A stretch of DNA of 58,272 nucleotides from an uncultured Rhizobiaceae group bacterium (GTDB lineage: Bacteria; Pseudomonadota; Alphaproteobacteria; Rhizobiales; Rhizobiaceae). The position numbers and the translations under genes were made by a program. Each line of letters opens with the position of its first letter. Within the stretch, counting starts at the first letter, position 1. Location: NCBI GenBank assembly GCA_938044775.1, contig CALIOE010000070.1:1-58272 (forward strand), read 5' to 3'. The notes under the pieces are model-generated. The model made no database searches. It saw only the letters and a program-made list of their open reading frames with translations, and had not been told where the DNA came from. This document shows positions 19,047 through 34,869 of the stretch, piece by piece.

Positions 19047-19074
19047 TGCCTGATTCCCCTCATGCTGACAAAAG

Positions 19075-19104: not shown

Positions 19105-19138
19105 GTGCCTTCTCTGATTAAGTGTCAAATCAAGAAAG

Positions 19139-19159
19139 CCCATCATCAGGAGTGATGGG
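19139..19159. repeat. short hairpin, 7-bp stem
   Basis: CCCATCA and TGATGGG pair around a 7-base loop. No T-tract follows on either strand. It sits in the intergenic stretch 19047-19294, in which I see no other element. Confidence 0.35.
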
Positions 19160-19294
19160 GCGCATGCAATTGGCCGCCGGCTCGGCCCGCAAAAACCGTC
19201 AATTTCGCGAGATTTCGAAATATGTGCGGTTGAACACATCAGTTGGATGATAAGCGTCGCACATTCTGTTCGTTAGCAGGGAGTGGAACAGAAA

Positions 19295-19426
19295 ATGACC
19301 ATTATCTTAGTCGTGGCTTCAGCCACCGTTGCATGTGTCGCCTTAGCGACTTTGATTGAGCAAAAGGACCGGCGCCGGACCGACGAGTCAGAAGCTTCCC
19401 GGATGGCGCGGCGTTACGAGCACTGA
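19295..19426 (+). CDS. 43-residue single-pass membrane peptide
   Basis: A short frame of 43 codons follows a good ribosome binding site (GGGAG ten bases upstream of the ATG). It encodes one hydrophobic segment (TIILVVASATVACVALATLI) and a charged tail rich in Arg, Lys, Asp and Glu, giving a typical small membrane protein with its tail in the cytoplasm. No family is recognised. It faces, tail to tail, another tiny membrane-protein gene at 19531-19680 of very similar layout. Confidence 0.5.
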   Translation: MTIILVVASATVACVALATLIEQKDRRRTDESEASRMARRYEH

Positions 19427-19479
19427 CCAGGGTGGATCAGACTCAATCAAAATGCCGCTCCAGGCACGGTGAGAACTAA

Positions 19480-19522
19480 CGGGCGCCGAAGATCTATCTG
19501 GCTAATCAGCAATTTGCGCCCG
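19480..19522. repeat. inverted repeat between two tail-to-tail small genes
   Basis: CGGGCGC (19480-19486) and GCGCCCG (19516-19522) form a perfect 7-bp stem with a 29-base loop, midway between the ends of the two small genes. It may act as a weak bidirectional terminator, but there is no T-run. Confidence 0.35.
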
Positions 19523-19530
19523 CATTGTTA

Positions 19531-19680
19531 CTAGTGCTCACTGTCATCAAGGATCGGAGCCATCCCGACGCGCTTCTCCGCTTCCTTTATGCTCAATCGG
19601 GTGTTTTCGACGAACATACGGAAAAGAAGAACCGCCAATGCTGACATAGAAATTGCGTAAACCACTGCGATTGCTGTCAT
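19531..19680 (-). CDS. 49-residue single-pass membrane peptide
   Basis: On the minus strand a strong GGGAGG lies six bases before an ATG that opens a 49-codon frame. The product has a hydrophobic N-terminal helix (AIAVVYAISMSALAVLLFRMF) and an amphipathic charged tail (VENTRLSIKEAEKRVG) ending in DDSEH. It resembles in layout, though not closely in sequence, the peptide encoded at 19295. No known family is recognised. An AT-rich stretch upstream (19690-19760) could hold its promoter. Confidence 0.5.
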   Translation of the reverse strand: MTAIAVVYAISMSALAVLLFRMFVENTRLSIKEAEKRVGMAPILDDSEH

Positions 19681-19771
19681 AATCAAGCCTCCCAAAGTAT
19701 TATGAACATACTCTAGTAACTATTCCGGAATAACCTTGCGTTAATATTTTCGGGTGGATTTATCCCGTTTT

Positions 19772-19984
19772 TCATTCGCTATTGATGAAAAATGAAGTGT
19801 TCTTCAGCCCGCACCCTTCGATCGTGAGATCGAAGCTGCGCCCGAGCATATCCACCTGGATGCGGCAGGCAGGAAAATACAGGTTTTGCGTTCCAGCACT
19901 ACGCTGCTGATGTCTCTGAAGAGCAACCTTGGGGAGAAGAAGCTCGAGCGACCCGCTGCTGAAGATGGCCAGTTGAGTTTTCAA
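19772..19984 (-). CDS. possible small gene after the dehalogenase
   Basis: A TTG-started frame of 70 residues begins 25 bases after the dehalogenase stop on the same strand. There is no good ribosome binding site and no recognised family. The predicted peptide is soluble with an alternating polar/apolar end (CRIQVDMLGRSFDLTIEGC). A 5-bp hairpin (ATCGC/GCGAT, 19993-20009) lies between the two genes. It may be real and co-transcribed or just open by chance. Confidence 0.25.
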   Translation of the reverse strand: MKTQLAIFSSGSLELLLPKVALQRHQQRSAGTQNLYFPACRIQVDMLGRSFDLTIEGCGLKNTSFFINSE

Positions 19985-20009
19985 TGTCGACTATCGCTTA
20001 TCATGCGAT

Positions 20010-23000
20010 CTAAAGATCAATGACAATGCGTCCGTCTTTTTGGCTGGCGCGGGACTGGCAGGTGATGATTTCCTGTGTCCGCTGCTTGTTGGACAGAACA
20101 AAGTCCCGGTGCTCGACATCGCCCTCCAACAGCCCGCATTTGCAAACCCCGCAGATGCCATCTGAACATTTGACATCGACCGGCACCCCGTTGGCAATAA
20201 GCACGTCAGACAAGGTCTCATCAGCCTCAACGCTGAGTTCCTTGCCGGACCGCGCCAGGGTGACCGTGAAGGCGTGGTTCACATAGTCAGGCTGATCGGG
20301 CACCGAGAAATATTCCAGATGCCGGGCTTCCTCCGGAAATCCGTGACGCTCCGCTGCCTGTATGACACCATCCATGAAACGGTCCGGCCCACAAGTATAG
20401 ACATGCCAGCCGGGCTCGTATCCTTTTAAAATTTCATCCAAATCGGCACGCGTTCCCTGATCGGAAAAATGACACGTCACGTGATCCGACCAGGGCATCG
20501 ACTGGAGATCGTCAACATATCCCGCGCCATCCCTTTCGCTGGCTGAGTAGTGCAACTCGAAGTCTCTGTTCAAAGCATGAAGTCGATGCGCGAAGGCAAT
20601 CATCGGTGTAATTCCAATGCCGCCACCCATCAGAAATGTCTTGGTCGCGTCTTCAACCAACTCGAAGTGGTTGATTGGCTTGGAGAGAAACACACGCCTT
20701 CCTTCGTTGAATATCCGATGCATCATTCTGGAGCCGCCGCGACCATCGTCTTCGCGCAAGACACCTATTTGATACTTGGCTGTATCCGCAGGATCTCCTG
20801 ACATGGAGTATTGGCGCAGGAATTCCGGCGTCACCACCACGTCCAGATGCCCGCCGGCAGTCCATTTGGGAAGCGGAGCACCATCCCAGGACGAAAACTC
20901 GTACTTCGTCACATAGGGCGTCATCGCTTCGACTTTGCTGATCCGCGCCATAACGACCGGAGCGTCCTTAAAATCGGGACGCGAGTGTGCAAGCTCCTTG
21001 GTCTCGCCACGCGCAAGCCGCGCTTTGTACTCCGATGCCGGGATCATGTTCTGATAGGCCTCGATGCCTGCTTCTCTGTCCATCGGAAATGGATAGGGCC
21101 AGGGCCAGGGCGCGAGATTGGCCGGATAGACGGCCAGAGTCTGATCCTTGTATTTGATATCGAGGTCGGGATCGAGTTCGCGGCGGTTGACCGGTGCTGC
21201 AGGCTCTTTGTAACCGCCGTCAGGTTTCAACTCGAGATCCCACCACCACTTCTTGGCATCATTGAGCCCGCCGTTCCCCAACTTGTCGTCGAGCCTGGCC
21301 AGCAGTGGTGCAGCCTTGGGCATGTTCATCGCTGCCCAGCGGAAGGGCTTCTCCTTGAATATGCCCTCGAGGTTCCAGGGGCACGTTTTCATGCAGCGGC
21401 CGCACATTGCGCCGCCTTCAGTCGTGATCCGGTAGGTTGTGCATTTCTGGCTATCGGACTTCCAGATCTCATAGCCATTGAACATGAGCTTGGGACCCGC
21501 GGTAATCGCCCCTGAAGGGCACTCGCGTGCGCACTTGTTACAACTTTCACAGAAATTCTGAAGTCCAAAGTCAATTGGCTTGTCATGGGCCAAAGGCATA
21601 TCGGTCGTCACAGCACCGGACTTGAGGCGTGGCCCCAGCAGCGGATTTAGGATTACCTCTCCGATGCGGCTGACTTCCCCCAAACCCGACAACAGCAACA
21701 ATGGCGGCTGAAGGACCTCACCGTCCATGACAGAGTGCGCCTTGGCCTTATAGCCGAGGTTTCGGATTTGCTTTGCAATGATTCCGCCCAGCAGCGAAAA
21801 CCGCAGATAGGCGCGCATGGATTGTGCGACAGCAATCCAGTCGTCGCCTGAGGCGCCTTCCATAGTCTCATAGCCCTGGTCGATGATCATCGAGATGGCG
21901 TTGTGATGGGGCGGATCTATCGGTGCGCCCGTGGCATCATGGCTGTACCAGGTCCAGTCCGGGCAACGCGAAATGCCAACGGCATCGATTCCCAGAAAAT
22001 AGCTCGCCGCCTTCACATTAGCTGAATTGCGTTCAGCATCCGTCGGCTTTTGAGCAACCTCACTGCTCTCGCCATCTTGCAACAGCACAAAGGCTCCCAG
22101 CATCCGGCGTTGTGCGAACGAATGGGCGCTCTTGCGCGCATACCACCCTCCGGATGCAGCTTCCTGCTGTTTTTTGCCAAGATCGCCAAATTGCGAACGC
22201 GCGAACATGTCAGTGCGTTTGGGTACGCGGGCCACACGTTCCTCATCAATATATGTTGTCGGCGTATCAACTCGTTTCAGTTTTTCAAACGGGTGAGCAC
22301 CATCAACGTAACGCCTGCGCGCATATGGATCGCGGTTTAGCGCGCCTTTTTGTGTGCCTTTGCCAATCCACCAGGATGGCAGGGTCGGTTGCTCGGAATG
22401 CGGTGCTAACGGCGCATCACAAGCCATTTGCATATTGGTCGTCACCGCAGCGAGGCCAAATCCCTTGATGCCAAAAGGTGCTTTGAGTGTATTTTCTTCC
22501 ACGGTGGTCAGGCCTGCAGCAACCGCCAGCTTGTTCAAATCCACATCTGAAGAACTGGCTGTATGCGCACGCGCCTGAAAACCCAATAAATGGAGGTAAC
22601 TTGATAGGATCACCGCCGTCTCGGTTGCGCGCAGAGCTGCGCGATGGTCTTGAACATTGATGATCCAATCAGCGCCGGCCTCATCCTGTTGCGGATTTCT
22701 GTTGTGCTCCACGAGGATTACGATGGCATGGGTGTGACCCTCGATAGAGCCGAGCGGCGCCTCAATGGATTCACGCAGACCGGCCATGATTTCATCAATG
22801 CCGGACGCCAGCGTCTTGGTTTGTTTCGTTCGAATATCATGGGCGAGACGGTCGATATCCGCGTTTCGCGTAGCTTCCGCCAACAAGGCCTCATCTGAGA
22901 TCTTGCAAATACCGATCATCGAGCTGTCCTGAAAATAGCCGAAAGCCTTCATATGATTGGCGCGTTCTTGTGGGTCTTCCGGTGCGCTTGCCGGTTCAGG

Positions 23001-23216
23001 ATTGACCAGGCCGTCCCGAATGGCGTCCATCATTGCCTGGTATTCGCCCATCGAATTGACCAGGGAATGGGGCGTTTCGAGATTGCGGAAATCAATGCCG
23101 GCGGCACTGGGAACAGACCCGAGATCGGGCATGTCCTCGGCGCGCGCGAGACGTTCCAGCGGATAGGGGCCCATGTGAAACGGGCGATCTTTTGTTGAGA
23201 AGAAGCGCAAACCCAT
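20010..23216 (-). CDS. cytoplasmic reductive dehalogenase fused to flavin/2Fe-2S reductase (BhbA type)
   Basis: This 1068-residue protein joins a cobalamin-dependent reductive dehalogenase (about 1-690) to a phthalate-dioxygenase-reductase-like module (about 750-1068). The dehalogenase part has two 4Fe-4S motifs: C556-x2-C559-x2-C562-x3-CP, then C592 with C605-x2-C608-x3-CP. Tyr449 in DQGYETMEG is the best candidate for the catalytic tyrosine. The reductase has a flavin motif RQYS (801), a nucleotide loop GGGIGITP (864) and a plant-type 2Fe-2S site (C1017, C1022, C1025, C1053). There is no Tat signal and no RdhB anchor gene, so it is the catabolic, self-sufficient class known from Comamonas BhbA (3,5-dibromo-4-hydroxybenzoate). 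It lies downstream of an ABC importer and aromatic dehydrogenase genes. The start matches the conserved MGLRFFSTKDRP beginning. Confidence 0.93.
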   Translation of the reverse strand: MGLRFFSTKDRPFHMGPYPLERLARAEDMPDLGSVPSAAGIDFRNLETPHSLVNSMGEYQAMMDAIRDGLVNPEPASAPEDPQERANHMKAFGYFQDSSMIGICKISDEALLAEATRNADIDRLAHDIRTKQTKTLASGIDEIMAGLRESIEAPLGSIEGHTHAIVILVEHNRNPQQDEAGADWIINVQDHRAALRATETAVILSSYLHLLGFQARAHTASSSDVDLNKLAVAAGLTTVEENTLKAPFGIKGFGLAAVTTNMQMACDAPLAPHSEQPTLPSWWIGKGTQKGALNRDPYARRRYVDGAHPFEKLKRVDTPTTYIDEERVARVPKRTDMFARSQFGDLGKKQQEAASGGWYARKSAHSFAQRRMLGAFVLLQDGESSEVAQKPTDAERNSANVKAASYFLGIDAVGISRCPDWTWYSHDATGAPIDPPHHNAISMIIDQGYETMEGASGDDWIAVAQSMRAYLRFSLLGGIIAKQIRNLGYKAKAHSVMDGEVLQPPLLLLSGLGEVSRIGEVILNPLLGPRLKSGAVTTDMPLAHDKPIDFGLQNFCESCNKCARECPSGAITAGPKLMFNGYEIWKSDSQKCTTYRITTEGGAMCGRCMKTCPWNLEGIFKEKPFRWAAMNMPKAAPLLARLDDKLGNGGLNDAKKWWWDLELKPDGGYKEPAAPVNRRELDPDLDIKYKDQTLAVYPANLAPWPWPYPFPMDREAGIEAYQNMIPASEYKARLARGETKELAHSRPDFKDAPVVMARISKVEAMTPYVTKYEFSSWDGAPLPKWTAGGHLDVVVTPEFLRQYSMSGDPADTAKYQIGVLREDDGRGGSRMMHRIFNEGRRVFLSKPINHFELVEDATKTFLMGGGIGITPMIAFAHRLHALNRDFELHYSASERDGAGYVDDLQSMPWSDHVTCHFSDQGTRADLDEILKGYEPGWHVYTCGPDRFMDGVIQAAERHGFPEEARHLEYFSVPDQPDYVNHAFTVTLARSGKELSVEADETLSDVLIANGVPVDVKCSDGICGVCKCGLLEGDVEHRDFVLSNKQRTQEIITCQSRASQKDGRIVIDL

Positions 23217-23248
23217 GATCTATTTCTGTCCAATAAACATCAACGGAA

Positions 23249-23271
23249 CGATCGCCTCGAATTTCCGATCG
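23249..23271. promoter_or_regulatory. paired CGATCG palindromes upstream of the dehalogenase
   Basis: Two copies of CGATCG (23249-23254 and 23266-23271) stand 11 bases apart, 33-55 bases before the dehalogenase start. The 199-base gap 23217-23415 is the only sizeable non-coding stretch between the operon and this gene, so it probably holds a promoter. This is a guess from position only. Confidence 0.25.
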
Positions 23272-23415
23272 GATTGCGACGACATTTGTTGTCACCGCTA
23301 ACTCGTTTCATTGCAACTAAGTGCCCAACGGTACGACCGAATCTTCATATTTGCCTGTGCTCATTCCGCCCCTGGGAAGATGCCATGACCTGCCCTCCCA
23401 CTCACTGGCGTCTGC

Positions 23416-25020
23416 TCACTTTTTCTTTGCAGGAGCCTCCGAGAGGCCGCTCATCCCGTCTTCGATATTCAGCCCCAATTCTTCGCCGATCTTTTTCAGT
23501 GCCGGCAGTTGAACGGCCATTTCCATAATGGAATCGAGTGCCTGATTGACAGGCGGTTTGCCGCCATCGCCACCGCTGCTGCCGCCACCGCCACCTCCAA
23601 GATGGTTGATGCGGATAGAGTCGATTTTTTCTGCCGGCTTGACCATCTGCTCGATGATTTTGGGCAACGCTTCGAGACGGGCGATATCCGCCTTCAGTGC
23701 GATAATTTCCTTGTTGAAAACGTTTTCCGCTTCGTTAAGTGCCTTCTGACCCTTGGCGCGTGTCTCCATGTCTTCTTTCATGGTTGCGATACGCAGTTTG
23801 GAAGCCTCGGCTTCGGCTTTGGCGTTTTGCAGGGTGCTCTTAGCCGCTTCAACGGCCACTTCGGCTTGCGCCTTGGCGCCCGCAATCAGCTTTTCGGTAG
23901 AAACCTCCGATTCCTGCTGAGCCTGCAAAAGAGCGATCTGCTTTTTGCGCTGCGCTTCAGCGAGCGCGCGAGCTGTGCCGATTTCTTCGGTCGCCTTCAC
24001 GGCTTCCGCCTTTGCCAGATCTGCCGCCGCGCGGGCTTTGCTTTCGTCTTGCGTCTTCTTGGAAACTGCTATGACTCGGTCCTGTTCGGCGATCTCGATT
24101 TCGGTGGTCTGATCAATTTCTGCCTGCCGGATCGTTTTTTCACGCTCGATATCGGCGGCGCGAATGTCACGCTCCATCATGATGCGAGATTCGTGAATGG
24201 CCTTTTCGCTGTCCGCTTTTCGTGCTGCGACTTCCGCAAGCTGAGCTGCGCGAAGACTTTCGACGGCTTCCGTCTGACGAATCTGCGCCTCCTCCTGTTC
24301 CAGATCGATTTCCAGCTTGCGCTTTGACGCTTCCATCGACGAACGGTGGACAGAGACTTCTGCGTCCGCATCGATCTCTGCTCTCTCCTTTTTCGACTTG
24401 GCAATTACTTCAGCGAGCTTACGCATACCAACGGCGTTAAAAGCATTGTTTTCGTCGAGCGCCGAGAAAGCTGTTTGGTCCAGGGCCGACAGCGATACGC
24501 TTTCCAAGGCCAGTCCGTTGCGCATGAGCGGCGTTGCGAGAAGCTCAGCAACTTCCGAGACGTAGACCGAGCGCTGCTCGTGCAATTCATCCATCGTCAT
24601 CCGCGCTGCGACCGACCGCAGCGCATCCACAAGCTTGCCCTCGATCAGTTCGCGTAAACGGTTGGCATCGAACGTGCGGTCGCCAAGCGTTTGCGACGCA
24701 CGGTCGACAGCTTCTTCTGTGGGATCGACAGAAACATAGAACTCTGCACCCACATCGACGCGCAACCGGTCTTTCGTGATGAGCGAGCTTTCGCCGGTCC
24801 GGCGCACTTCGAGTCGCAGAGTCTGCATGTTGACCCGCGACACATCATGAAAATAAGGAATCGCCAGCACGCTGCCATCAAGCGCAACCTTGCGCCCTCC
24901 TACCCCGGTTCTGATCAGGCTGATCTCACGAGTGGAACGCTGATTAAAATAGGCCGCCAGCACGACGACGATGGCAACGATGATTACCGCCACAATGAGG
25001 AAGGTGATTGCACCACTCAT
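23416..25020 (-). CDS. flotillin-like SPFH/band 7 protein
   Basis: The 534-residue protein has an N-terminal membrane helix (about 4-25), an SPFH/band 7 domain (about 30-200), a long Glu/Ala/Lys-rich coiled coil (about 200-440) and a glycine-rich linker (GGGGGGSSGGDGG, about 475-487) before a short C-terminal helix. This is the layout of bacterial flotillins (YuaG/FloT, YqiK), which form membrane microdomain scaffolds. Its ATG overlaps the stop of the dehydrogenase gene in an ATGA, so it is translationally coupled to a catabolic gene, which is unusual. No NfeD partner is nearby. It could anchor the transporter or the enzymes; this is inference. Confidence 0.9.
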   Translation of the reverse strand: MSGAITFLIVAVIIVAIVVVLAAYFNQRSTREISLIRTGVGGRKVALDGSVLAIPYFHDVSRVNMQTLRLEVRRTGESSLITKDRLRVDVGAEFYVSVDPTEEAVDRASQTLGDRTFDANRLRELIEGKLVDALRSVAARMTMDELHEQRSVYVSEVAELLATPLMRNGLALESVSLSALDQTAFSALDENNAFNAVGMRKLAEVIAKSKKERAEIDADAEVSVHRSSMEASKRKLEIDLEQEEAQIRQTEAVESLRAAQLAEVAARKADSEKAIHESRIMMERDIRAADIEREKTIRQAEIDQTTEIEIAEQDRVIAVSKKTQDESKARAAADLAKAEAVKATEEIGTARALAEAQRKKQIALLQAQQESEVSTEKLIAGAKAQAEVAVEAAKSTLQNAKAEAEASKLRIATMKEDMETRAKGQKALNEAENVFNKEIIALKADIARLEALPKIIEQMVKPAEKIDSIRINHLGGGGGGSSGGDGGKPPVNQALDSIMEMAVQLPALKKIGEELGLNIEDGMSGLSEAPAKKK

Positions 25021-25838
25021 GACTTTGTCTCCTCAAGCATGTTGTTTTTTATGTGCAGATAGGACGACATGCCACCATCTGCGGGAATGTTAGAACCGCG
25101 TATCCAGTGGGTCATGTCCGACAGCAAAAATGCGACGATGGGCGCGATGTCTTCGGGCACGCCAGGGCGGTCCATGGTCTTTCGATCTTCGGTAGCGCGC
25201 TCGCCCAGTGTTTCCAGAAAATCTTTCAGGATCGGCGTTTCGACCGGCCCTGGCGAAACTGTGTTCATGCGGATGTTTCGATCACGCCACGTCCAGCGAT
25301 TCATCATCGTCCAAACGACCAGTGCCTCCTTGGAGAAGAAGTAGCTGCGACCGCCCTCGTTAGAAATACTGTGCCGGATGAGAAAGTCTTCAATGTCTTC
25401 AAAGGCGAGATTTTCGCTCGCCTTGATGGCGGGGATTGAATTTTGCCATCCGAATCCGGCCAGTGAGGCAATGTTGACGATAGAAGCACCGTCATTCAGT
25501 TTCGGCACCATCAATTCAGTGTAGTACTTGAGACCAACCAGATTGACTGCAATGACGAGATGAGCCGGCGCCGTCGGCGGCAGGCCGGCGCTATTGACAA
25601 TGCCGTCGATGCGGGTGGGCATCGCCTGAACCAGGGCTTTGATGGTGCGACGGTCCGACATGTCTGCGATGTACAGTTCGTCGACATTTTCTTCGGTCTT
25701 GTGGACGTCAACGCCCAGAACATCGCCGCCGAGTTTCTTCACCAATCGCGCGACTTCCTTGCCGATACCGGAAGAGCAGCCGGTGACCACAATAGTCTTG
25801 TCAGCAAGCAATTTTCCATTGACCCAGGATTCATCCAT
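25017..25838 (-). CDS. SDR, coniferyl-alcohol-dehydrogenase-like
   Basis: The 273-residue short-chain dehydrogenase has the NAD-binding TGCSSGIG (19-26), NSAG (82-85), Ser125 and the catalytic pair Tyr166/Lys170 (YFFSK). The order of motifs and the wording YFFSKEALVVW, RMNTVSPGPVETPIL and IRGSNIPADGG resemble coniferyl-alcohol dehydrogenase (CalA) and related 3-alpha-hydroxysteroid-type SDRs. A role in oxidising an aromatic alcohol to its aldehyde with NAD is therefore likely. The ATG at 25838 has GAGGAAA upstream and lies 11 bases after the aldehyde dehydrogenase stop; a longer frame is not needed. It is coupled to the flotillin gene downstream. Confidence 0.88.
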   Translation of the reverse strand: MDESWVNGKLLADKTIVVTGCSSGIGKEVARLVKKLGGDVLGVDVHKTEENVDELYIADMSDRRTIKALVQAMPTRIDGIVNSAGLPPTAPAHLVIAVNLVGLKYYTELMVPKLNDGASIVNIASLAGFGWQNSIPAIKASENLAFEDIEDFLIRHSISNEGGRSYFFSKEALVVWTMMNRWTWRDRNIRMNTVSPGPVETPILKDFLETLGERATEDRKTMDRPGVPEDIAPIVAFLLSDMTHWIRGSNIPADGGMSSYLHIKNNMLEETKS

Positions 25839-25849
25839 CGTCGTTTCCT

Positions 25850-27313
25850 CTAGAAGGCGGGCGGAATTTTTTTGCCGCCCCGCTCCACTGTGATCCACCG
25901 AGTTTCAGTGAAATTTTCCATGCCCCAGCGTCCGCCGTAACGACCGACGCCGGAGGACTTCGCGCCGCCAAATGGGGCATTGGGTTCGTCATTGATGGGT
26001 GAACAATTGATGTGAGACATGCCGGTTTGCAGCCCTTCCGCGATAGCTAGCCCGCGCTGTTCGTTCGACGTGCAGACTCCGGACGAAAGGCCGTAGGGCG
26101 TGTCGTTGGCAATCGCGATCGCTTCAGCGTCCGTGCGAAACGGAATTACCGGAGCAACCGGTCCAAAGGTTTCGTTTTGGTAGACAAGCATATCGGGAGT
26201 CACGCCTGTCAGGATTGTTGCTTCCACATAGCGGCCATCCACCTTGCCACCGACTTCGGCTTTTGCGCCTTTTGCGAGGGCATCTTCGATCTGCTCTTTG
26301 ACCATCGCCGCCTGCTTGTCGTTGATCAGCGGGCCGATGACGTGGTCGTTGCTTTTCAGAGGATCGCCAACTTTCAGTTTCGAGGCACGTTCGCGAAATT
26401 TCCGCATAAAGGGTTCGTAGATTTTCTCGTGTACGAGCAGCTTTTCGACGCTCATGCAGATCTGGCCCTGATGCATGAAGGAGCCGAAATTGGCGAGCTG
26501 CGCCGCGTGGTCGAGATCGGCATCTTCGCAAATTATGAGCGCGTCCTTGCCGCCGAGTTCAATGCAGCATTTCTTCAGGTGAGCTCCGGCTTTAGCGGCG
26601 ATTGAGCGGCCAACGGCAGTTGATCCTGTGAAACAAATACCCTTGACCGCTGGGTTTTCGATCAGCTCGTCACCCACGGCTCCGACATTGTCGCGGGAGC
26701 ATGTCACTACATTGAACACCCCAGCAGGCAAGCCAACGGCATCGCAAACTTCAGCAAAGAACAGACCGCCGCAATACGGCGTTTCTTCCGAGGGTTTTAA
26801 TACAATCGTGTTGCCCGCAACGAGTGGAAAGGCGAACTGGCGGGCCGACAGAAGCGCCGGCACGTTCCATGGACTGATGACCGCAACCACACCCATGGGG
26901 CGGCGGATGGCGATCGACATTTTCCCGCTGGCGGATGGCAACACTTCGCCAATGTTGCCGTAGGCGGCACCGGCAGCGGATTTGAAAATTTCCTGCAATG
27001 CGTTGGCCTCATGGACACCTTTGCCGAACCAACCCCCGCCTTCACCCTGAACGGCCTTGATGAGATCGTCCCTTCGCCGCTCAATTTCAGCCGCGATCTT
27101 CAACATGTAGTCGACACGTTCGGTGAACGGCAAAGCAGCCCAGTCCGCAAAAGCAGAATGGGCACTTTCAATGGCCTTCTTTGTGTCACTCAAGTCGGCG
27201 TCGTCGACAGAAGCCCACAATGAACCGTCCGCCGGATTAAGACTTTCAAACTTGCGGGAAGCGCGTGTCCACCGACCGCCTGAGTAAAAGCCTTTTGGTT
27301 CGTAATATCCCAT
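25850..27313 (-). CDS. aldehyde dehydrogenase, vanillin/benzaldehyde type
   Basis: The 487-residue enzyme is a complete NAD(P)-dependent aldehyde dehydrogenase: SPWNVP (147-152), FTGSTAVG, the general-base Glu252 in CIELGGKD and the nucleophile Cys286 in GQICMS, then ETFGPVAPV. Overall it resembles vanillin and salicylaldehyde dehydrogenases more than betaine-aldehyde types. It would oxidise an aromatic aldehyde to the acid, the step following the neighbouring SDR. It starts directly at the end of livF with no spacer, so it is part of the same transcript as the ABC importer. Confidence 0.9.
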   Translation of the reverse strand: MGYYEPKGFYSGGRWTRASRKFESLNPADGSLWASVDDADLSDTKKAIESAHSAFADWAALPFTERVDYMLKIAAEIERRRDDLIKAVQGEGGGWFGKGVHEANALQEIFKSAAGAAYGNIGEVLPSASGKMSIAIRRPMGVVAVISPWNVPALLSARQFAFPLVAGNTIVLKPSEETPYCGGLFFAEVCDAVGLPAGVFNVVTCSRDNVGAVGDELIENPAVKGICFTGSTAVGRSIAAKAGAHLKKCCIELGGKDALIICEDADLDHAAQLANFGSFMHQGQICMSVEKLLVHEKIYEPFMRKFRERASKLKVGDPLKSNDHVIGPLINDKQAAMVKEQIEDALAKGAKAEVGGKVDGRYVEATILTGVTPDMLVYQNETFGPVAPVIPFRTDAEAIAIANDTPYGLSSGVCTSNEQRGLAIAEGLQTGMSHINCSPINDEPNAPFGGAKSSGVGRYGGRWGMENFTETRWITVERGGKKIPPAF

Positions 27314-28573
27314 CTACTTCTCCTTCACTCGCATCAGTTCGCCGCCAGGCGCGCGTCGATACACTTCGAGTTTCGTTCGGCGGAAGACCGGAATTTTTGG
27401 CAGGTTTTCATCGTCAACTACAGGGTGGATATTGATGTGGCCGTGGCTCGGTATTTCGTTGCTGGTGGAGTGTCTGGATTTTTGCGCCTCATTGGCTGCT
27501 GTTTCGAAGTCAGCAAGCAATTTTTGCACGTCGGAGTTGCCAGAGGGCATCGAAGTTCCGTGGATTGCACCTGTCGTGCTGGCCGCTGGCGTGTTGGATA
27601 GGCGGGGCGCCGAAGCACTGGATACGGAAACATGTTGCTTGACTGCAATGTCGGAAGCGCGATCGACCAGCGATCCGATATCGATGCCCGCCACTTGCTC
27701 ACGCACCCCGGAGAGCTCGCCGGCAGGAAGCGGCTGAATGTATCTTTGTGGTGACGCCGATGGCGGCGCGGTTTGTAGTGTGCGGTCTGCCTCATCGGGC
27801 GTGATGATATGCGTTTTGATCTTGGGTTTGCCGTGGGTATTTGTTGGTGAAGCCGCTCCTCGCGCACCGCCGAGATAAGCTGTTTGAACAGCGGGATCGT
27901 CCATCATATTCTTCGCGGTGTCTTCGCTGGTGATCGTGCCGTTTTCCAGCAAATAGGCCCGATCAGATATCGCAAGCGACTGCTTTGCGTTCTGCTCCAC
28001 CATCAAAACGCCGATGCCGGTATCGCGAATGTGCGAAAGGTTCTGAAACAATTCCTTGCACAGCAGGGGAGAAAGGCCAAGTGACGGCTCGTCGAGCATA
28101 AGTATCTTTGGATTGGCCATTATGGCACGGCCAATGGCCACCATCTGTTGCTCGCCTCCCGACATGGTTCTGGCCACCTGTCCTGCGCGTTCTTTCAGCT
28201 TTGGAAAAAGCTCGTAGACGCGGGAAAGGTTTTTCTCCTGATGCACCCGCGCTTCCGTCGCATGGGCACCGAGCATGAGGTTTTCGGCGACCGTTAAGTC
28301 ACCGAAAATTCCACGGCCTTCCGGCACGAAGGATATGCCACGCACGACGATCACCTCAGCCGGCAGCCCCGTCAGGTCCGCTCCGTCGAGCTGCACATTG
28401 CCCTGAACCTTGCCTTCGCTGGTGCCGGCAATCGCTTTCAGCAGTGAGCTCTTGCCGGCGCCATTTGCACCCAGAATGACGACGATTTCGCCTGCATCCA
28501 CACGTACTGCGGCATCTTCCAGGGCGCGGTGTGCGCCATATATGACCGATATGCCTGAGACGTCCAACATCAC
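27314..28573 (-). CDS. livF: branched-chain-type ABC importer ATPase LivF with long C-terminal extension
   Basis: Residues 1-238 form a complete LivF: Walker A GANGAGKSS, the motif SFVPEGRGIFGDLTVAENL, signature MSGGEQQMVAIGRAI, Walker B ILMLDEP and the closing TAYLGG. Normal LivF proteins end here. This one continues for about 180 residues (240-419) with a Pro/Ser/Thr-rich linker, a possible helix around DVQKLLADFETAANEAQ and a positively charged end (FRRTKLEVYRRAPGGELMRVKEK). No known domain is recognised in the extension. The start is GTG 28573 or ATG 28570, overlapping the livG stop. It powers the LivHM permease. Confidence 0.9.
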   Translation of the reverse strand: MMLDVSGISVIYGAHRALEDAAVRVDAGEIVVILGANGAGKSSLLKAIAGTSEGKVQGNVQLDGADLTGLPAEVIVVRGISFVPEGRGIFGDLTVAENLMLGAHATEARVHQEKNLSRVYELFPKLKERAGQVARTMSGGEQQMVAIGRAIMANPKILMLDEPSLGLSPLLCKELFQNLSHIRDTGIGVLMVEQNAKQSLAISDRAYLLENGTITSEDTAKNMMDDPAVQTAYLGGARGAASPTNTHGKPKIKTHIITPDEADRTLQTAPPSASPQRYIQPLPAGELSGVREQVAGIDIGSLVDRASDIAVKQHVSVSSASAPRLSNTPAASTTGAIHGTSMPSGNSDVQKLLADFETAANEAQKSRHSTSNEIPSHGHINIHPVVDDENLPKIPVFRRTKLEVYRRAPGGELMRVKEK

Positions 28574-29301
28574 TCGTCCCCCAGATAGGCTTGGATGACA
28601 TCCTTGTCCGACAGGACTTGGGACGGTGTGCCCTCAGCGATTTTCGTGCCGGAGTTCATAACCACACAACGGTCGCACAGAGAGCGGATGGCGTCCATGA
28701 CATGTTCAACGAGAATGATGGTGCGGCCTTCCTTGCGAAGCTGCGAAACCAGATCGATTCCGATTTGAAGCTCCGTCGGATTTAGGCCCGCAAGCCATTC
28801 ATCGAGTAACAACACCCGTGGTTCGCCAGCCAGCGCGCGGGCCAGTTCGAGGCGTTTTTGGTCGATATAGGTGAGCGTGGAAGTGGGCTGGTGCATCTGT
28901 TCGTCAAGTCCCAGACGTTCGAGCAGTTCTTCAGCCTGATGCCACGCCTGATGACCCCATTGGCGATGATGACCGAAAGCGGAGCCGGCCATGACGTTTT
29001 CGATGATCGACAATCCGGGCAGAATGCGCACAAGCTGGAAAGTCCGCGCCACGCCAGCACGGGATATCTGGTGAGCGGGCAGCGTCGACAGTCTGCGGCT
29101 CTGCATCGAGATCGTTCCACCGGTCACCTTCAACGCGCCGGAAATCAGGTTCATGATCGTCGTCTTACCGGATCCGTTTGGTCCAATCAGGCCGAGCACT
29201 TCATGCTCCTTGACGTCAAAACTGACATTGTTGACCGCCACCAGACCGCCGAAACGCTTCGTAACATCTTTGACCTGTAAAAGCGTCCGCCCCGTCGTCA
29301 T
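28570..29301 (-). CDS. livG: branched-chain-type ABC importer ATPase LivG
   Basis: The 243-residue ATPase has Walker A GPNGSGKTT, the LivG-specific GVARTFQLVRILPGLSIIENV, signature-region LTYIDQKRLELARALAGEP, Walker B VLLLDEW and a switch His in VEHVMD. The signature is YIDQKRLE rather than LSGGQ, as is common in LivG. Walker B ends in DEW instead of DEP, a mild variation. The ATG at 29301 overlaps the livM stop in ATGA; an upstream extension would overlap livM by 135 bases and is rejected. Together with LivF it energises import. Confidence 0.92.
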   Translation of the reverse strand: MTTGRTLLQVKDVTKRFGGLVAVNNVSFDVKEHEVLGLIGPNGSGKTTIMNLISGALKVTGGTISMQSRRLSTLPAHQISRAGVARTFQLVRILPGLSIIENVMAGSAFGHHRQWGHQAWHQAEELLERLGLDEQMHQPTSTLTYIDQKRLELARALAGEPRVLLLDEWLAGLNPTELQIGIDLVSQLRKEGRTIILVEHVMDAIRSLCDRCVVMNSGTKIAEGTPSQVLSDKDVIQAYLGDE

Positions 29302-30221
29302 GCTCGCATCCTTGACCAGTATTTCTCGATCAGGCCGGCAAAGCCATTGGGGATGAAATAGACAATCAACAGAAAGGCGATACCGAGGAACAGGGTTGTT
29401 GAATTGGGGAAGCTGATTGTGATCGCTTCCCAAATCAGCGTAAACGGAATGACACCGACAAGCGGCCCCCAGAGTCGGTGGGCGCCGCCCAGCAGTGCCA
29501 TAATCACGACAAGAAAGCTTAGTTCCGGCGAAAAAACCTGATTGGGCTCAATGTAGGAATAGCGTGGCGCAATGATGACACCGACAAGGGCGCCAAAGAA
29601 GCCGGTCGTGGTGAACAGGATGACCTTGGATAGTGCTGTGTTGATTCCCACATGCTTGGCCACTTCCTCATCGTTGCCGATGATTTTCAACGCGAAGCCC
29701 AACCGGTTGCGTGACAGCCACCAGCCGAAAAGAAAGATCGCAAGACAGACGGCAAGCAGCATCCAGTAAATATGATCTTCCGTGAAATCGGTGAGCACGT
29801 AGAGGCCGCGTGAGCCGAGAAAATTGTTCTGCACCCAGGACACGAGGTTGCGGATCATTTCCGCCAGGCCCAGCGTAAAAATCACGAAATAGACGCCGGA
29901 AAGACGCAGCGTCGCGAAGCCAATCAGCGCAGCCACGACGGCGGAAACGATCGGCGCGATGAACAACATCAACCAAAAAGACAATTGATAGTCACTCATG
30001 GCCGTGGCGACGAGGTATCCGCCAATGCCAAAGAACGCGCCACTTGCGAGAGATATGTAGTGGGTCGGGCCTGAAAAGAGTGCCCAGCTTGTTGCGAGCG
30101 CCGTATACATCGCGATCGTTACGGCAATCGACATCCAGTAGCCGTCCGCCACATACGGTACCAGTGCCGCCACAATAAATAAGACGGCCCCGACAACAGG
30201 CCCGACCCAGCGCGCTTCCAT
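29298..30221 (-). CDS. livM: branched-chain-type ABC importer permease LivM
   Basis: The 307-residue inner-membrane protein has about nine hydrophobic segments and the LivM hallmark between them: NEEVAKHVGINTALSKVILFTTTGFFGALVG, the loop that contacts LivG/F. It shares its first base with the end of livH, so the two are coupled. In this cluster the importer likely brings in an aromatic acid rather than an amino acid, since many Liv-type systems carry aromatic compounds. Confidence 0.93.
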   Translation of the reverse strand: MEARWVGPVVGAVLFIVAALVPYVADGYWMSIAVTIAMYTALATSWALFSGPTHYISLASGAFFGIGGYLVATAMSDYQLSFWLMLFIAPIVSAVVAALIGFATLRLSGVYFVIFTLGLAEMIRNLVSWVQNNFLGSRGLYVLTDFTEDHIYWMLLAVCLAIFLFGWWLSRNRLGFALKIIGNDEEVAKHVGINTALSKVILFTTTGFFGALVGVIIAPRYSYIEPNQVFSPELSFLVVIMALLGGAHRLWGPLVGVIPFTLIWEAITISFPNSTTLFLGIAFLLIVYFIPNGFAGLIEKYWSRMRA

Positions 30222-31084
30222 TACACTGACCTCCGCCCGAACAGACCCTGCGGCCTGAACAGGAGTACCAGCAGGAAGATGAAATAGGCAGCGACAAGAG
30301 TAAGACCTGGATCGACAAGCGTCGCGACTGCGGTTTCGACAATGCCCAGAATCAAGGCTGCGATGATCGCACCGCGAATATCACCCACGCCGCCCATTAT
30401 GACGATGATCAGGGCCTTCATCGTGAAGATCACGCCGATTGAAGCGTCGAGCGTTATGAAAGTGGAGATCAGAACACCGCCAGCGGTTGCGATGGCACCG
30501 CCCAGAGCAAAAGTCAGCGCGCTGACCCTATCGACATTGATACCCACAAGACGGGCGGATTCTGCATTCACCGCGACGGCACGAACCGCCGTCCCGCTGC
30601 GCGTATGTCTGAGCCAGAGGAACAGGCACGCGCCGATTACCACCGCAATCAGAAAAGCGACCAATCTGTTCTGGGCGACTGTCGTGCCAAGAATTTCGAT
30701 CGGATTGGCGAGGAAGGAATATGTGAAATAGGCACCATGTATCGACACCATGATGCCAACCAGAGCGAACGAAATGCCAAAGGTCGCGAGGATGGAGTCG
30801 ACTTCCAATTGTCCCTGACTCTTTGCCCGCCTGACGAGGGGACGCAGCAGAATCTTGTAAATCAGCCAATTGCCGAAAAACGACAGAGGCACCGCCACCA
30901 GCAAGGTGACCAGCGGCGAAATCTGATAGGCCGTGAAAGACCAGAACGCCGCCAGCGCTCCGAGCACAATCATCTCACCGTTGGCGAGATTCATGATGCG
31001 CGCGACGCCATATTGCAGGTTCAGCCCCATTGCGATCAGCGCATAGGTGCCGGCCAGCAGCAATCCGGAAACAAAAATATCCAT
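30221..31084 (-). CDS. livH: branched-chain-type ABC importer permease LivH
   Basis: The 287-residue permease has eight hydrophobic segments and typical LivH sequences: GLNLQYGVARIMNLANGEMIVLGA at the N-terminus and GTAVRAVAVNAESARLVGINVDRVSALTFALGGAIA in the EAA-like cytoplasmic loop. It follows the binding-protein gene after 58 bases and is the first of four tightly overlapping transporter genes. Confidence 0.93.
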   Translation of the reverse strand: MDIFVSGLLLAGTYALIAMGLNLQYGVARIMNLANGEMIVLGALAAFWSFTAYQISPLVTLLVAVPLSFFGNWLIYKILLRPLVRRAKSQGQLEVDSILATFGISFALVGIMVSIHGAYFTYSFLANPIEILGTTVAQNRLVAFLIAVVIGACLFLWLRHTRSGTAVRAVAVNAESARLVGINVDRVSALTFALGGAIATAGGVLISTFITLDASIGVIFTMKALIIVIMGGVGDIRGAIIAALILGIVETAVATLVDPGLTLVAAYFIFLLVLLFRPQGLFGRRSV

Positions 31085-31142
31085 GGGTTCTTACCGCTCA
31101 ATCGCAGGGCCGCTTTGGCCCCGCGATCAAGTACTCAGCCGT

Positions 31143-32354
31143 CTAGTTCCAGCCACCTTTTGCGATGACCGGGAGGGCACCGTCGACATTGACCGAAGAC
31201 ACGCCGTGGAACACACCGTCCTGCCATTGGCCAACTGTCCAGAACTTGTTCGAGAACTGGTTCTCGAATTTGATATCACCCATGATCGTGTCGAACGTAT
31301 TGTCCTTGATATACTGAGTAACCGCCTCCTTATCCAAGGAGCCGACACCTTCGATGGCCTGTTCGAGGATTTGCAGCGACACGTAGGTGTTGGCGGATGC
31401 CCAGTAGTCGGCGTCCTTACCCGTGATCTCTTTGTGCGCAGCGCGATAGGCCTGCATTTTGTCAGAACTCACATTAACACCACCGGCGCCGAGAACACCG
31501 TTGATCTTCGATCCGAACTTTCCGCCAAATGCCGGGAAGCAGGTAGCCACTGCCGAATAATAGGCTTTGACATCGAGGTTCTCGATGATGGCCTGTTCCG
31601 CGAGGGCAAACGTGTCCGGCGGATAAGACCAGGCAACAAATGCGTCAGGGTTGGAAGCCTTGGCTCCCTTCATGACAGGCGAAAGGTCCGGCGTGCCGAG
31701 CGGGTAAGACTTGTCATAGACAATCTCGAACCCCGCTTCCTTGAACAGCGGACGGGCCGCATCCGCCAGTTCAATGCCAAAAGCATCGGCCACGTTCACC
31801 ATTGCTATCTTGTTGCCGATCTTTCCGTCGTTTTTCATTTTGACAAGAATATCGCGAACACCTTCGGCAAAGGAAGTCGTCGTTCCCAGGGTGAAAAAGA
31901 GGTTCGGATAGCGTTGTGTCAGTTCTTCGATTTTGTCCGAAATGGCGCTGACTGCAATCTGCGGATATCCGTATTTTGCGTAGATCGGCGCGGCTGCAAT
32001 GTTGAAGCCGGTACCAAATGGCGCGACGATGAAGTCGACCTTATCCTGCGTTGCCAGACGCTGGACGGCCTTGATGTGCTCGGCCGGATTGGTCTTGTCG
32101 TCATATTCGATCAGTTCGATTTTCTTCTGACCGTCTTTAAGCTTGAGGCCGCCGCGGGCGTTCACCTGCTTCACCCACAATTCCACATTCGGCCACTGCG
32201 TTACAACGGCGCCGCCAGCCAGCGGCCCAGTCTTCGGCGCAACAGCGCCGATCTTCACCGTATCAGCCGCATGTGCGCCCAAAGTCATCGTCAAGCCTAC
32301 GGCGGCAGCCATTGCCGTCGATGCGCAGACTTTCAAGAGTGTTCTTCTTATCAT
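31143..32354 (-). CDS. periplasmic substrate-binding protein of Liv-type ABC importer
   Basis: The 403-residue protein begins with a signal peptide (MIRRTLLKVCASTAMAAAV..., cut after AHA) and then DTVKIGAVAPKTGPLAGGAV, the normal start of a type I periplasmic binding protein (Peripla_BP_6). GGGAG is well placed before the ATG at 32354; a longer frame to 32552 has no signal peptide at its start. It delivers the ligand to LivHM. Ligand type cannot be read directly, but the operon encodes aromatic alcohol and aldehyde dehydrogenases. Confidence 0.92.
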   Translation of the reverse strand: MIRRTLLKVCASTAMAAAVGLTMTLGAHAADTVKIGAVAPKTGPLAGGAVVTQWPNVELWVKQVNARGGLKLKDGQKKIELIEYDDKTNPAEHIKAVQRLATQDKVDFIVAPFGTGFNIAAAPIYAKYGYPQIAVSAISDKIEELTQRYPNLFFTLGTTTSFAEGVRDILVKMKNDGKIGNKIAMVNVADAFGIELADAARPLFKEAGFEIVYDKSYPLGTPDLSPVMKGAKASNPDAFVAWSYPPDTFALAEQAIIENLDVKAYYSAVATCFPAFGGKFGSKINGVLGAGGVNVSSDKMQAYRAAHKEITGKDADYWASANTYVSLQILEQAIEGVGSLDKEAVTQYIKDNTFDTIMGDIKFENQFSNKFWTVGQWQDGVFHGVSSVNVDGALPVIAKGGWN

Positions 32355-32701
32355 GGTGTTCTCCCTGAATTCATACTTTTGCAGCTCCTCCCACAGGGCC
32401 ACGAGGCGTAAAGCCTTGCATCTGAAAGGACATCTGACAATCAGCCGAATGAAATAAGTCGGGCAAGATCTGTGAGACAGCTGCGAGGCGTGACACGTGT
32501 GGTGCCACCTGCTGATTCTGTTCCAAAACTGGTCCATCCTGTTCTTGAGCAAATGGCGGAGAAGAAAGGCCAGATCCCGCGAACGATGGTGTTAAGCGGC
32601 AAGTCATTGGCAAGGCCCTTCACGACGAAAACATTTAGTCCCACGGGTTCGGTTGGCAGGTTAAGTTTTTGTCGTCGCCTGCCAGCGTCGCCAGACACCG
32701 G
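32355..32701. promoter_or_regulatory. 347-base non-coding stretch upstream of the importer operon
   Basis: I see no credible gene here. It should hold the promoter of the importer-dehydrogenase operon. The only structure noted is an 8-bp palindrome ACACGTGT (32493-32500), about 140 bases before the binding-protein start. No terminator with a T-run is evident for the gene at 32702. Confidence 0.35.
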
Positions 32702-33577
32702 TTATTGCAAGTAGGAGACCACCGCATCCTCATAAACACCCGATCCCATCGCATCTTCGGGGAAGATGTTGCGCTCAGAAATCCAGGCGAAAGAATCGTC
32801 GAAAACCTCTTTCGTATAGGGTTCGAAGACAATGCGCTCTCCTGGACCCCAGCGGCGGGTGTCGATCTCGGCGAGATACTTTTCGGGGAATTCATTGCGG
32901 TAGTGGTGGGTGTACAGCTCGGGCCGAAGATCGATATCGCGCTGTGCTTTTCTGAGCGCTCGGTAATATTTCTGCACATCTTCCGGATCTGCATCATGAT
33001 TGACCGATCCCGCGATCATGAATGTGGAGTCGATGATTTTGCGGAATCCCAGTTGCTCGGCGAAATAGTACGGCCCGCTGAAAAGAGCAGCGGCCTGCAC
33101 TTCGCCCTCGATCAAACGTTCCATGCGCCCGAACAACATGCCGTCGCCGAAAGCCAGATTTATCTGGTCGCCCGGCATGTATTGCTCCAGCACCTGGATC
33201 GTCGAGTAGTGGCTTCCCGACTGATAGCCGACGGATATCGGAACTCCGGCAAGGTCTTCCGGCGACTTGATGGGTGAGTCCGCGGGCACAAAAATTCCCG
33301 AAGGCGAGACAGAGTAGGCGTCCCCATACAGTTTGGCGTGACCCACCGAAGCTGCAACGTTTACCGTCCAGTGACACGCACAGTTGACGCTGGCTTCTCT
33401 GCCCTTCTCCAGGCTCTGGAAAGCACCAACCTTGTCTGCGGTTTTGTGATGCTGACCGTCGGTCGCGCGGATGAATTCCCTAAATTCATAGTCGAGCCCC
33501 TCTTGCGCGAAATAGTTTTTCTCTTCTGCCACCCATTCGTGCAGCCTGAAATGCGCTTCGATCAGAAATTTGCTCAT
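32702..33577 (-). CDS. NMT1/SsuA-like protein without signal peptide
   Basis: The 291-residue protein has the type II periplasmic-binding fold of the NMT1/THI5 and SsuA group: LHEWVAEEKNYFAQEGLDYEF at the start, PADSPIKSPEDLAGVPISVGYQSGSHYSTIQVLEQY in the middle and ERNIFPEDAMGSGVYEDAV at the end. There is no signal peptide or lipobox: the chain begins MSKFLIEAHFRLHEW. It may be a cytoplasmic ligand-binding protein or an enzyme; members of this superfamily include THI5 and 4,5-dihydroxyphthalate decarboxylase-like proteins. A cysteine/histidine cluster NCACHWTVN lies near residue 65. It is divergent from a LysR gene and shares strand with the importer operon. Confidence 0.75.
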   Translation of the reverse strand: MSKFLIEAHFRLHEWVAEEKNYFAQEGLDYEFREFIRATDGQHHKTADKVGAFQSLEKGREASVNCACHWTVNVAASVGHAKLYGDAYSVSPSGIFVPADSPIKSPEDLAGVPISVGYQSGSHYSTIQVLEQYMPGDQINLAFGDGMLFGRMERLIEGEVQAAALFSGPYYFAEQLGFRKIIDSTFMIAGSVNHDADPEDVQKYYRALRKAQRDIDLRPELYTHHYRNEFPEKYLAEIDTRRWGPGERIVFEPYTKEVFDDSFAWISERNIFPEDAMGSGVYEDAVVSYLQ

Positions 33578-33667
33578 GGGTCCCTCCGTTTGGTTTCCTC
33601 ACGGCCCGCCCTCCGGCAAAGGCTCTTGTGTGGCAGGCTCGCACTTTAGCATGCATAGACCAATCCC

Positions 33668-33698
33668 ATAACACTGATATATGTTATCGAACAATTCG
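33668..33698. promoter_or_regulatory. candidate LysR operator
   Basis: ATAACA-N8-TGTTAT (33668-33687) is a perfect 6-bp inverted repeat containing a T-N11-A core, the usual LysR-type site. A second small repeat, CGAA-N3-TTCG (33688-33698), adjoins it. Both lie between the divergent LysR and NMT1-like genes, close to the LysR start, as expected for autoregulation. Confidence 0.55.
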
Positions 33699-33725
33699 AT
33701 GACCATGAAATGATGAAGGCATAGC

Positions 33726-34634
33726 GTGATGAGAGATAAGCTGCGCGGAATCGATTTTGCGGCGCTGGAAACGTTGCAGCTGGTTTACCGGCGAAAGTCG
33801 TTCACTGCTGCAGCGGAGGAATTGAACATTAAGCAATCGTCCGTCAGTTACACGATAGAACGGCTGCGCAAGGCTTTCGCCGACCCACTGTTCGTTCGTC
33901 AGGGTAACGGAATATCCGCTACTGAACGGTGCATCGAGATAGTGGAGGCTGCCGAAAGCATTCTCGGCACGATCGAGCAAGCTGCTCTGCCATCACAATT
34001 CGATCCGCTATCAATTCAGGCCTCTGTAACGATCTCTGCGACATATCTGTCGCGTTCGATCCTAATGCCGCAATTCGTCCGTGAATTACGCGAGGAGGCG
34101 CCCGGCATTTCGATAGAGCTTATCACCGGCTTCACCGATGCCGGCGAACAACTGCTCGCTGGAAGAGCCGATCTTGCCCTGTCACCCGTTGCGATCGATG
34201 AGAGTGGAATACACGGGAAATTCCTGTTCGAGGATCCGTATTTTTGCCTTATGGATCGCAAAAACCAGTTGACGAGAAGCGAATTGACACCAGAGAGTTT
34301 TGCTGCCGCCTCGCACCTGATCATACATTACGGCCAGAAATGGAGACCGATTTACCGAAACGTCCTTCAAAGCCGCGGTCTGAAAATGCAGGTCACCATG
34401 AGCACCCCGGATCCCGAAGACGTTAAATTGTTCATCCCGGGGACGGATCTCGTCGTCGCCATGCCTTCAAGAATTGCTCAACAATTTGCGACCGGGTTGT
34501 ATATGTGTCCATGCCCGGTTCCTGCTATCGCTGAGCTTAACATGTATTGGCCCGCCAGACTTAACCAGTCCCCACTCCACACCTGGCTTCGCGACAAAGT
34601 CGTTCGGTTAGCAACAGAGCTGCCGGACATCTAG
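33726..34634 (+). CDS. LysR-family transcriptional regulator
   Basis: The 302-residue protein has an N-terminal winged helix-turn-helix (about 10-70: FAALETLQLVYRRKSFTAAAEELNIKQSSVSYTIERLRKAF) and a C-terminal effector-binding domain (about 95-295). It probably senses an aromatic ligand or metabolite and controls the divergent NMT1-like gene and perhaps the importer and dehalogenase genes. GAAGG precedes GTG 33726 and ATG 33729, either of which may be the start. No second regulator is present in the cluster. Confidence 0.9.
   Translation: MMRDKLRGIDFAALETLQLVYRRKSFTAAAEELNIKQSSVSYTIERLRKAFADPLFVRQGNGISATERCIEIVEAAESILGTIEQAALPSQFDPLSIQASVTISATYLSRSILMPQFVRELREEAPGISIELITGFTDAGEQLLAGRADLALSPVAIDESGIHGKFLFEDPYFCLMDRKNQLTRSELTPESFAAASHLIIHYGQKWRPIYRNVLQSRGLKMQVTMSTPDPEDVKLFIPGTDLVVAMPSRIAQQFATGLYMCPCPVPAIAELNMYWPARLNQSPLHTWLRDKVVRLATELPDI

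Positions 34635-34792: not shown

Positions 34793-34869
<77 letters not shown>

Follow-up and report, generated by a model that had tools for sequence, protein, structure and literature searches.

A candidate aromatic alcohol and aldehyde uptake-oxidation operon beside a catabolic reductive dehalogenase gene in an uncultured Rhizobiaceae group bacterium

Results and Discussion

The window analysed here, a stretch of 58,272 nucleotides (contig CALIOE010000070.1, assembly GCA_938044775.1) from an uncultured Rhizobiaceae group bacterium, carries rdhA, the gene of a catabolic reductive dehalogenase (RdhA), next to an operon for a Liv-type uptake system, an aldehyde dehydrogenase (ALDH), a short-chain dehydrogenase/reductase (SDR) and a flotillin. 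We tentatively favour the reading that these are two adjoining units, an uptake-oxidation operon for an aromatic alcohol or aldehyde and a probably horizontally moved rdhA, which would feed a route through PobA. The region was earlier described as one uptake-oxidation-dehalogenation system for a halogenated aromatic. The ten genes of that preliminary description were all borne out by Pfam and NCBIfam in order, family and minus strand. The region is nevertheless made up of three adjoining parts and is not a single conserved unit: an NMT1-like gene with a divergent LysR gene, the LivKHMGF-ALDH-SDR-flotillin operon, and rdhA.

In the proposed route, the Liv ABC transporter would import a 4-hydroxybenzyl alcohol or aldehyde, presumably halogenated, the SDR would convert the alcohol to the aldehyde, and the ALDH would convert the aldehyde to 4-hydroxybenzoate or a near analogue. 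RdhA, working in the cytoplasm and driven by NADPH, would then take ortho bromine or iodine off 3-halo- or 3,5-dihalo-4-hydroxybenzoate, after which PobA would hydroxylate 4-hydroxybenzoate and a protocatechuate 4,5-dioxygenase-type enzyme would cleave the ring. We infer the halogenation of the imported compound, the joint working of both units in this bacterium and every substrate of the scheme. The genome encodes PobA (contig C8; 605 bits, cut-off 538.7), a class III extradiol dioxygenase beta subunit near protocatechuate 4,5-dioxygenase (contig C16; 467, cut-off 317) and HpaD (contig C164; 435, cut-off 316), and both of its matches to pcaH (TIGR02422) fell below the cut-off.

The reductive dehalogenase

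RdhA was typed by TIGR02486 at 207.6 bits against a cut-off of 160.35, and also held Fer2 and a DmmA-like reductase N-domain. Its catalytic part matched NpRdhA of Nitratireductor pacificus (PDB 4ras, 6zxu; E about 1e-166), and amino acids 758-1068 matched phthalate dioxygenase reductase (PDB 2pia), as a C-terminal reductase domain with 2Fe-2S. In an alignment of 109 distinct RdhA sequences, which also served for the tree, the cysteines of CESCNKCARECP and CGRCMKTCP were conserved at 100%, and S466, Y470, K532 and R596, the counterparts of S422, Y426, K488 and R552 of NpRdhA, were invariant in 109/109. The available part of the NpRdhA account names the latter as substrate-contacting and proton-donor residues (PMC7565698); the two enzymes thus share the catalytic domain and these contacts, whereas NpRdhA is without a fused reductase. 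The N-terminus MGLRFFSTKDRPFH aligned with the start of NpRdhA, and, as judged by eye, RdhA would be cytoplasmic and without a twin-arginine translocation (TAT) signal.

A fusion of RdhA to a phthalate-dioxygenase-reductase-like domain is also found, going by the descriptions excerpted from PMC10463259, in JtRdhA of Jhaorihella thermophila and BhbA of Comamonas sp. 7D-2, and ortho-halogenated 4-hydroxybenzoates are the proposed substrates of these enzymes as of the window RdhA. According to the same excerpt, JtRdhA debrominates 3,5-dibromo-4-hydroxybenzoate and 3-bromo-4-hydroxyphenylacetate with NADPH, and 3-bromo-4-hydroxybenzoate, also with NADPH, at half the rate (PMC10463259). By analogy, the window RdhA would be an NADPH-driven debrominase. 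The Comamonas gene belongs to a plasmid cluster for bromoxynil breakdown, whereas the window rdhA lies beside the Liv-ALDH-SDR-flotillin operon; as regards a bromoxynil-type bhb cluster, no pobA-like match was found in the window. Ros_A3X954 of Roseobacter sp. MED193, presented in the accessible part of PMC13101508 as a catabolic reductive dehalogenase of a marine heterotroph that debrominates 2,6-dibromophenol and has no TAT signal, was considered as the closest characterised enzyme and set aside. Its 4Fe-4S motif CDICTKCADACP, as reported there, is absent from the fused RdhA of MED193 (locus L047; about 70% identical to the window RdhA), and the two are therefore apparently distinct.

The window RdhA was placed (FastTree, midpoint root) as sister to those of Planktotalea, Octadecabacter, Planktomarina and one alphaproteobacterial metagenome-assembled genome (MAG), with support of 0.997, and together with this sister clade it was nested in a larger clade made up mostly of Rhodobacterales. 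Just outside this larger clade branched three genus mates (G008, G011, G013), the other genus mates being far away. This position conflicts with the genus and therefore suggests that the window rdhA probably moved horizontally, in one direction or the other.

The Liv-ALDH-SDR-flotillin operon

All five components of a Liv-type uptake system, i.e. the solute-binding protein, two permeases and two ATPases, were recognised by Pfam/NCBIfam, LivK itself by Peripla_BP_6 at 167.5 bits. By sequence, the solved structures that LivK matched best were Leu/Ile/Val-binding proteins, at an identity of only about 20%; taking sequence and fold neighbours together, leucine binders were joined by 4-hydroxybenzoate or p-coumarate binders. 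The acidic residues that we take, from their presumed positions, to grip the amino group in leucine-binding proteins look unconserved in LivK alignments, which is a weak hint against amino acids as ligand. RPA0668 of Rhodopseudomonas (PDB 4evq), a 4-hydroxybenzoate binder, matched LivK in fold and is likewise accompanied by two permeases and two ATPases. Compared with Liv-type (HAAT) aromatic transporters, the window operon adds the ALDH, the SDR, the flotillin and a long-tailed LivF. The tail of LivF recurs in homologues: 31/31 compared open reading frames (ORFs; L114-L195) were 367-643 aa long, some lengths depending on start choice, and their C-terminal tails are variable in sequence and often Lys-rich.

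The ALDH (Aldedh, 512.8 bits) had salicylaldehyde, 4-hydroxybenzaldehyde and vanillin dehydrogenases, with a few unnamed ALDHs, as its nearest solved structures, and the earlier label 'vanillin-type' fits it. The SDR was assigned to coniferyl-alcohol dehydrogenase (NF009092; 283 bits, cut-off 242) and would oxidise an aryl alcohol. The flotillin has SPFH and Flot domains with one N-terminal hydrophobic segment, and a flotillin gene occupies the equivalent place in 10/40 Liv-ALDH relatives and in 3/7 SDR loci of other families. A search of the open-access literature gave nothing related by title for flotillin combined with Liv and ALDH.

Co-occurrence of the SDR with RdhA

It is at the level of genomes that the SDR and RdhA come together. 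The SDR was found in the Liv loci of five genomes (G000, which is the window genome, G007, G009, G077, G260) and, by a class search (E<=1e-85), in seven others (G425, G503, G609, G618, G703, G711, G781). A catabolic RdhA was present in 12/12 of these genomes. The scope of this count is limited, since within the family the SDR was looked at in the fetched Liv loci alone, and since the nearest base rates are those of the family (41/394) and of the order's other families (2/24, E<=1e-100) and not of the whole class. The twelve genomes represent seven genera, three genomes being from one genus with near-universal rdhA and three from another. In the seven genomes of other families RdhA is apparently unfused, the best open frames being 580-767 aa long, with key residues intact, the G609 copy ending at a contig end; of two such proteins that were typed, one scored over the RDH cut-off of 160.35 (162.9 bits) and one under it (150.9). 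The rdhA of G009 is a contig-end fragment holding no catalytic residues. By comparison, the flotillin form of the operon without the SDR was accompanied by rdhA in 1/6 genomes (G217 yes; G015, G033, G158, G325 and G376 no).

Neighbours of rdhA in other genomes

Rhodobacterales and their relatives commonly encode a fused catabolic RdhA: one scan gave 237 encoding stretches, of which 80 were kept as loci (66/80 with at least 3 kb upstream, 58/80 with at least 9 kb). Directly 3' of rdhA, pobA was found in seven loci from at least four tree branches, namely L005 of Planktotalea frisia, L010, L057 of Nitratireductor and the same-genus G002, G004, G006 and G010; four of these neighbours were typed over the NCBIfam cut-off and the other three by similarity. 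PobA is 4-hydroxybenzoate 3-monooxygenase. A sulfatase-family gene stands 5' of rdhA on the same strand in four loci of four branches, at 186 bp in L045 and 30 bp in L073; in L057 it precedes an SDR gene, and in G011 it is 1.5 kb off with an opposite-strand gene between.

The Nitratireductor MAG locus (L057:333-7237) has the operon order sulfatase-SDR-rdhA-pobA and is a candidate pathway for sulfated bromophenols. Its SDR has the same NCBI subfamily as best match, at 229 bits, below the cut-off of 242, and is 39% identical to the window SDR. An SDR of this subfamily also lies about 1.2 kb 5' of rdhA in L044 (G353; 247 bits) and in G389. An ALDH remnant stands directly 5' of rdhA in L005 (9012-9950), where the middle part is absent, and another in L014, reduced to roughly the last 62 aa and containing a stop; the RdhAs of both loci are members of the sister clade of the window RdhA. 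The sulfatase-family gene, which was picked because it adjoins rdhA in L057, was present in 67/394 family genomes and in 32/41 rdhA genomes against 7.0 expected; its products fall below the named NCBIfam cut-offs, those of L045, L073 and L121 passing Pfam Sulfatase. In L260 its neighbours include an SDR that belongs to the subfamily (244.5 bits), as well as a fused TRAP permease and a binding protein of the TAXI-TRAP type. The linkage of rdhA to pobA, to the sulfatase-family gene and to a related SDR thus supports the chemical logic proposed earlier, by way of other neighbourhoods. The window genome has its own sulfatase-family gene beside a regulator gene (L255:7538-19922, contig C29), where a second set also occurs, with genes for a putative binding protein and an iron-type alcohol dehydrogenase together with ALDH-like, LivH-like and LivG-like ones.

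Evidence against a joint function

Several observations weigh against a joint function of the operon and RdhA. Among 40 Liv-ALDH loci fetched by ALDH (L114-L117, L138, L161-L195), all five Liv genes were present in 37, flotillin in 10, the SDR in 4 and rdhA in none, although L138, L180 and L182 do not extend far enough at one end to cover the operon in full. Nor was rdhA found in any of seven SDR loci of other families (L280-L286): Liv, ALDH, SDR and flotillin genes occur together in L280 and L281 and, with Liv in part, on the short contig of L282; L283 and L285 have Liv and SDR, L284 likewise on a short contig, and L286 an SDR without Liv. Genes of the Liv-operon type were therefore beside rdhA in 0/47 other loci, and the operon was met in 0/80 named rdhA loci; the nearest case, L076, has LivG-, LivF- and ALDH-like genes (40-54% identity) about 7-10 kb away. 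The claim of one linked cluster finds no support in these counts. Co-conservation with rdhA, on which the preliminary description had made its reading depend, thus failed in the neighbourhood and held in the genomes bearing the SDR.

The genome counts for Liv-ALDH as a whole, too, lose force on closer view. In the family sample of 394 genomes (Liv-ALDH at E<=1e-190, rdhA at E<=1e-120), Liv-ALDH was found in 40, rdhA in 41 and both in 16 against 4.2 expected. This co-occurrence was rejected as proof: on stratification by the sulfatase-family gene it became non-significant (14 vs 11.0 expected, p=0.10; 2 vs 0.5, p=0.07), and shared lifestyle may therefore explain it. RdhA was present in 12/36 genomes with Liv-ALDH and without the SDR; since such operons are mostly in RdhA-free genomes, the ligand of the transporter need not be halogenated. 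An AlphaFold model of LivK, with a pLDDT (predicted local distance difference test) of 75.6, resembles amino-acid binders and 4-hydroxybenzoate binders alike, and PobA is encoded on another contig than rdhA. Oxidation of the alcohol and aldehyde feeding RdhA is still the most likely function, although its probability falls a little short of even. Of the earlier interpretation, then, the claim of one linked system is not supported by gene neighbourhoods elsewhere, while alcohol and aldehyde oxidation upstream of a dehalogenase may stand, with the SDR genomes and the pobA, sulfatase and SDR linkages of rdhA in its favour.

Alternative explanations

The juxtaposition may be due to chance, the operon serving a non-halogenated lignin-type or algal aromatic and rdhA having landed downstream, where it would act alone on halophenolic acids from other uptake. 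We regard this as possible, though we would not expect it. It would accord with the few recurrent neighbours of rdhA (the commonest other gene clusters in 11/80 loci), with an RdhA tree that conflicts with the genus, with the frequency of Liv-ALDH in genomes without RdhA, and with G007 of the same genus, in which the modules are far apart (ALDH at 2.57 Mb, rdhA at 3.98 Mb, the NMT1-like gene at 4.14 Mb). The presence of RdhA in every genome with the SDR and the SDR-rdhA-pobA arrangement of L057 argue against it. Of the 15 genus genomes sampled, 14 carry rdhA, three a close ALDH and five the NMT1-like gene.

Alternatively, RdhA may act mainly on halogenated 4-hydroxyphenylacetate, for example from bromotyrosine, with a link to HpaD and the paa genes close by instead of the Liv operon. 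JtRdhA, in the available excerpt, used 3-bromo-4-hydroxyphenylacetate as fast as the dibromobenzoate (PMC10463259). HpaD is encoded in the genome, the window carries paaK and a paaZ-like gene at a distance of about 14-16 kb from rdhA, and rdhA follows paaK-selO in four same-genus genomes (G001, G002, G006, G009). PaaK and PaaZ, however, are enzymes of phenylacetate and not of its 4-hydroxy form, and the direct 3' neighbour of rdhA in the seven loci is pobA and not a hydroxyphenylacetate gene, which makes this explanation unlikely. The paaK-selO-rdhA loci are L123, L126, L127 and L301, with pobA next in L123 and L127. It is very unlikely that the Liv operon imports ordinary branched-chain amino acids or urea and that detoxification, as a housekeeping task, is what the ALDH and SDR do: the family names and the best solved relatives of LivK agree with it, but the identity to those relatives is low, the presumed amino-group-holding residues look unconserved, and the ALDH gene stands beside Liv genes in 38/40 loci fetched by ALDH, partly by construction.

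Wider implications

The favoured reading of two adjoining units extends to a broader possibility, which we hold to be rather less than probable. The SDR-bearing operon would be a front end dedicated to taking up halogenated hydroxybenzyl alcohols and aldehydes and oxidising their side chains, paired with fused or unfused RdhAs across alphaproteobacterial families. Together with a sulfatase-TRAP-SDR branch that would serve sulfated bromophenols, and with PobA downstream, it would form an aerobic route for the bromophenols of algae that is so far undescribed. If so, RdhA would be tied to algal bromophenols, with testable genes named upstream (the Liv binding protein, the SDR, the ALDH, the sulfatase-family enzyme) and PobA downstream. 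The excerpts available of PMC3148503 and PMC9322897 report algae as a source of 3,5-dibromo-4-hydroxybenzaldehyde and of bromophenol sulfates. The open-access literature searched held no assignment of steps preceding dehalogenation for fused catabolic RdhAs and no paper joining a reductive dehalogenase to sulfatase/bromophenol or to benzyl alcohol/aldehyde dehydrogenase; a search on Roseobacter aerobic cytoplasmic reductive dehalogenase gave no paper.

Organisation of the locus

Table 1. Positions of the genes and of one intergenic gap in the window
Feature	Position	Strand	Basis
rdhA, self-sufficient catabolic reductive dehalogenase, 1068 aa	20010..23216	-	Pfam/NCBIfam, PDB matches, residues, tree
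flotillin-rdhA gap, 199 bp	23217..23415	-	
flotillin, last gene of Liv operon	23416..25020	-	Flot + Band_7
SDR, coniferyl-alcohol dehydrogenase subfamily	25017..25898	-	NF009092
ALDH, kin of salicylaldehyde, 4-hydroxybenzaldehyde and vanillin dehydrogenases	25850..27313	-	Aldedh, solved relatives
LivF ATPase, long low-complexity C-terminal tail	27314..28573	-	ABC_tran
LivG ATPase	28570..29433	-	ABC_tran; ORF overlaps livM
LivM permease	29298..30221	-	BPD_transp_2
LivH permease	30221..31084	-	BPD_transp_2
LivK solute-binding protein, apparent signal peptide	31143..32354	-	Peripla_BP_6
NMT1/THI5-like protein, separate module	32702..33577	-	weak profile match
LysR-type regulator, divergent from NMT1-like gene	33726..34634	+	

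From LivH through the flotillin the genes overlap or follow with zero gap, LivK-LivH spacing is 58 bp and NMT1-LivK spacing 290 bp or more, according to which start of LivK is taken; the ORF of LivG overlaps livM, and the real start of LivG is probably inside it. No terminator-like or promoter-like consensus match was found inside the 199-bp gap between flotillin and rdhA, and read-through is therefore possible, though unproved.

The NMT1-like protein had been counted as part of the uptake system, a role that is unsupported because it has no evident signal peptide and because its gene adjoins a TRAP solute-binding gene in G007, where it forms a separate module. Its match to the NMT1/THI5-like profile was weak (27.4 bits, cut-off 20.5), no significant match was found in PDB, and AlphaFold with five sequences gave a mean pLDDT of 39.7. 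The divergent LysR gene, at the end of the region described earlier (34634) and missing from its gene list, was paired with the NMT1-like gene in G007 only (1/4 other NMT1 loci).

A tRNA-Arg (ccg) gene lies at 34793-34869, flanked by the LysR gene and a malic-enzyme gene; it was rejected as an insertion site, no tRNA being found in eight relative loci. The approximately 2.3 kb at 17730-20010 have little clear coding apart from a leucine-rich-repeat ORF (18015-18722). At 34981-41329, a fusion of malic enzyme with a phosphotransacetylase-like domain is followed by a phenylacetate-CoA-ligase-like gene and then by an ALDH-MaoC fusion.

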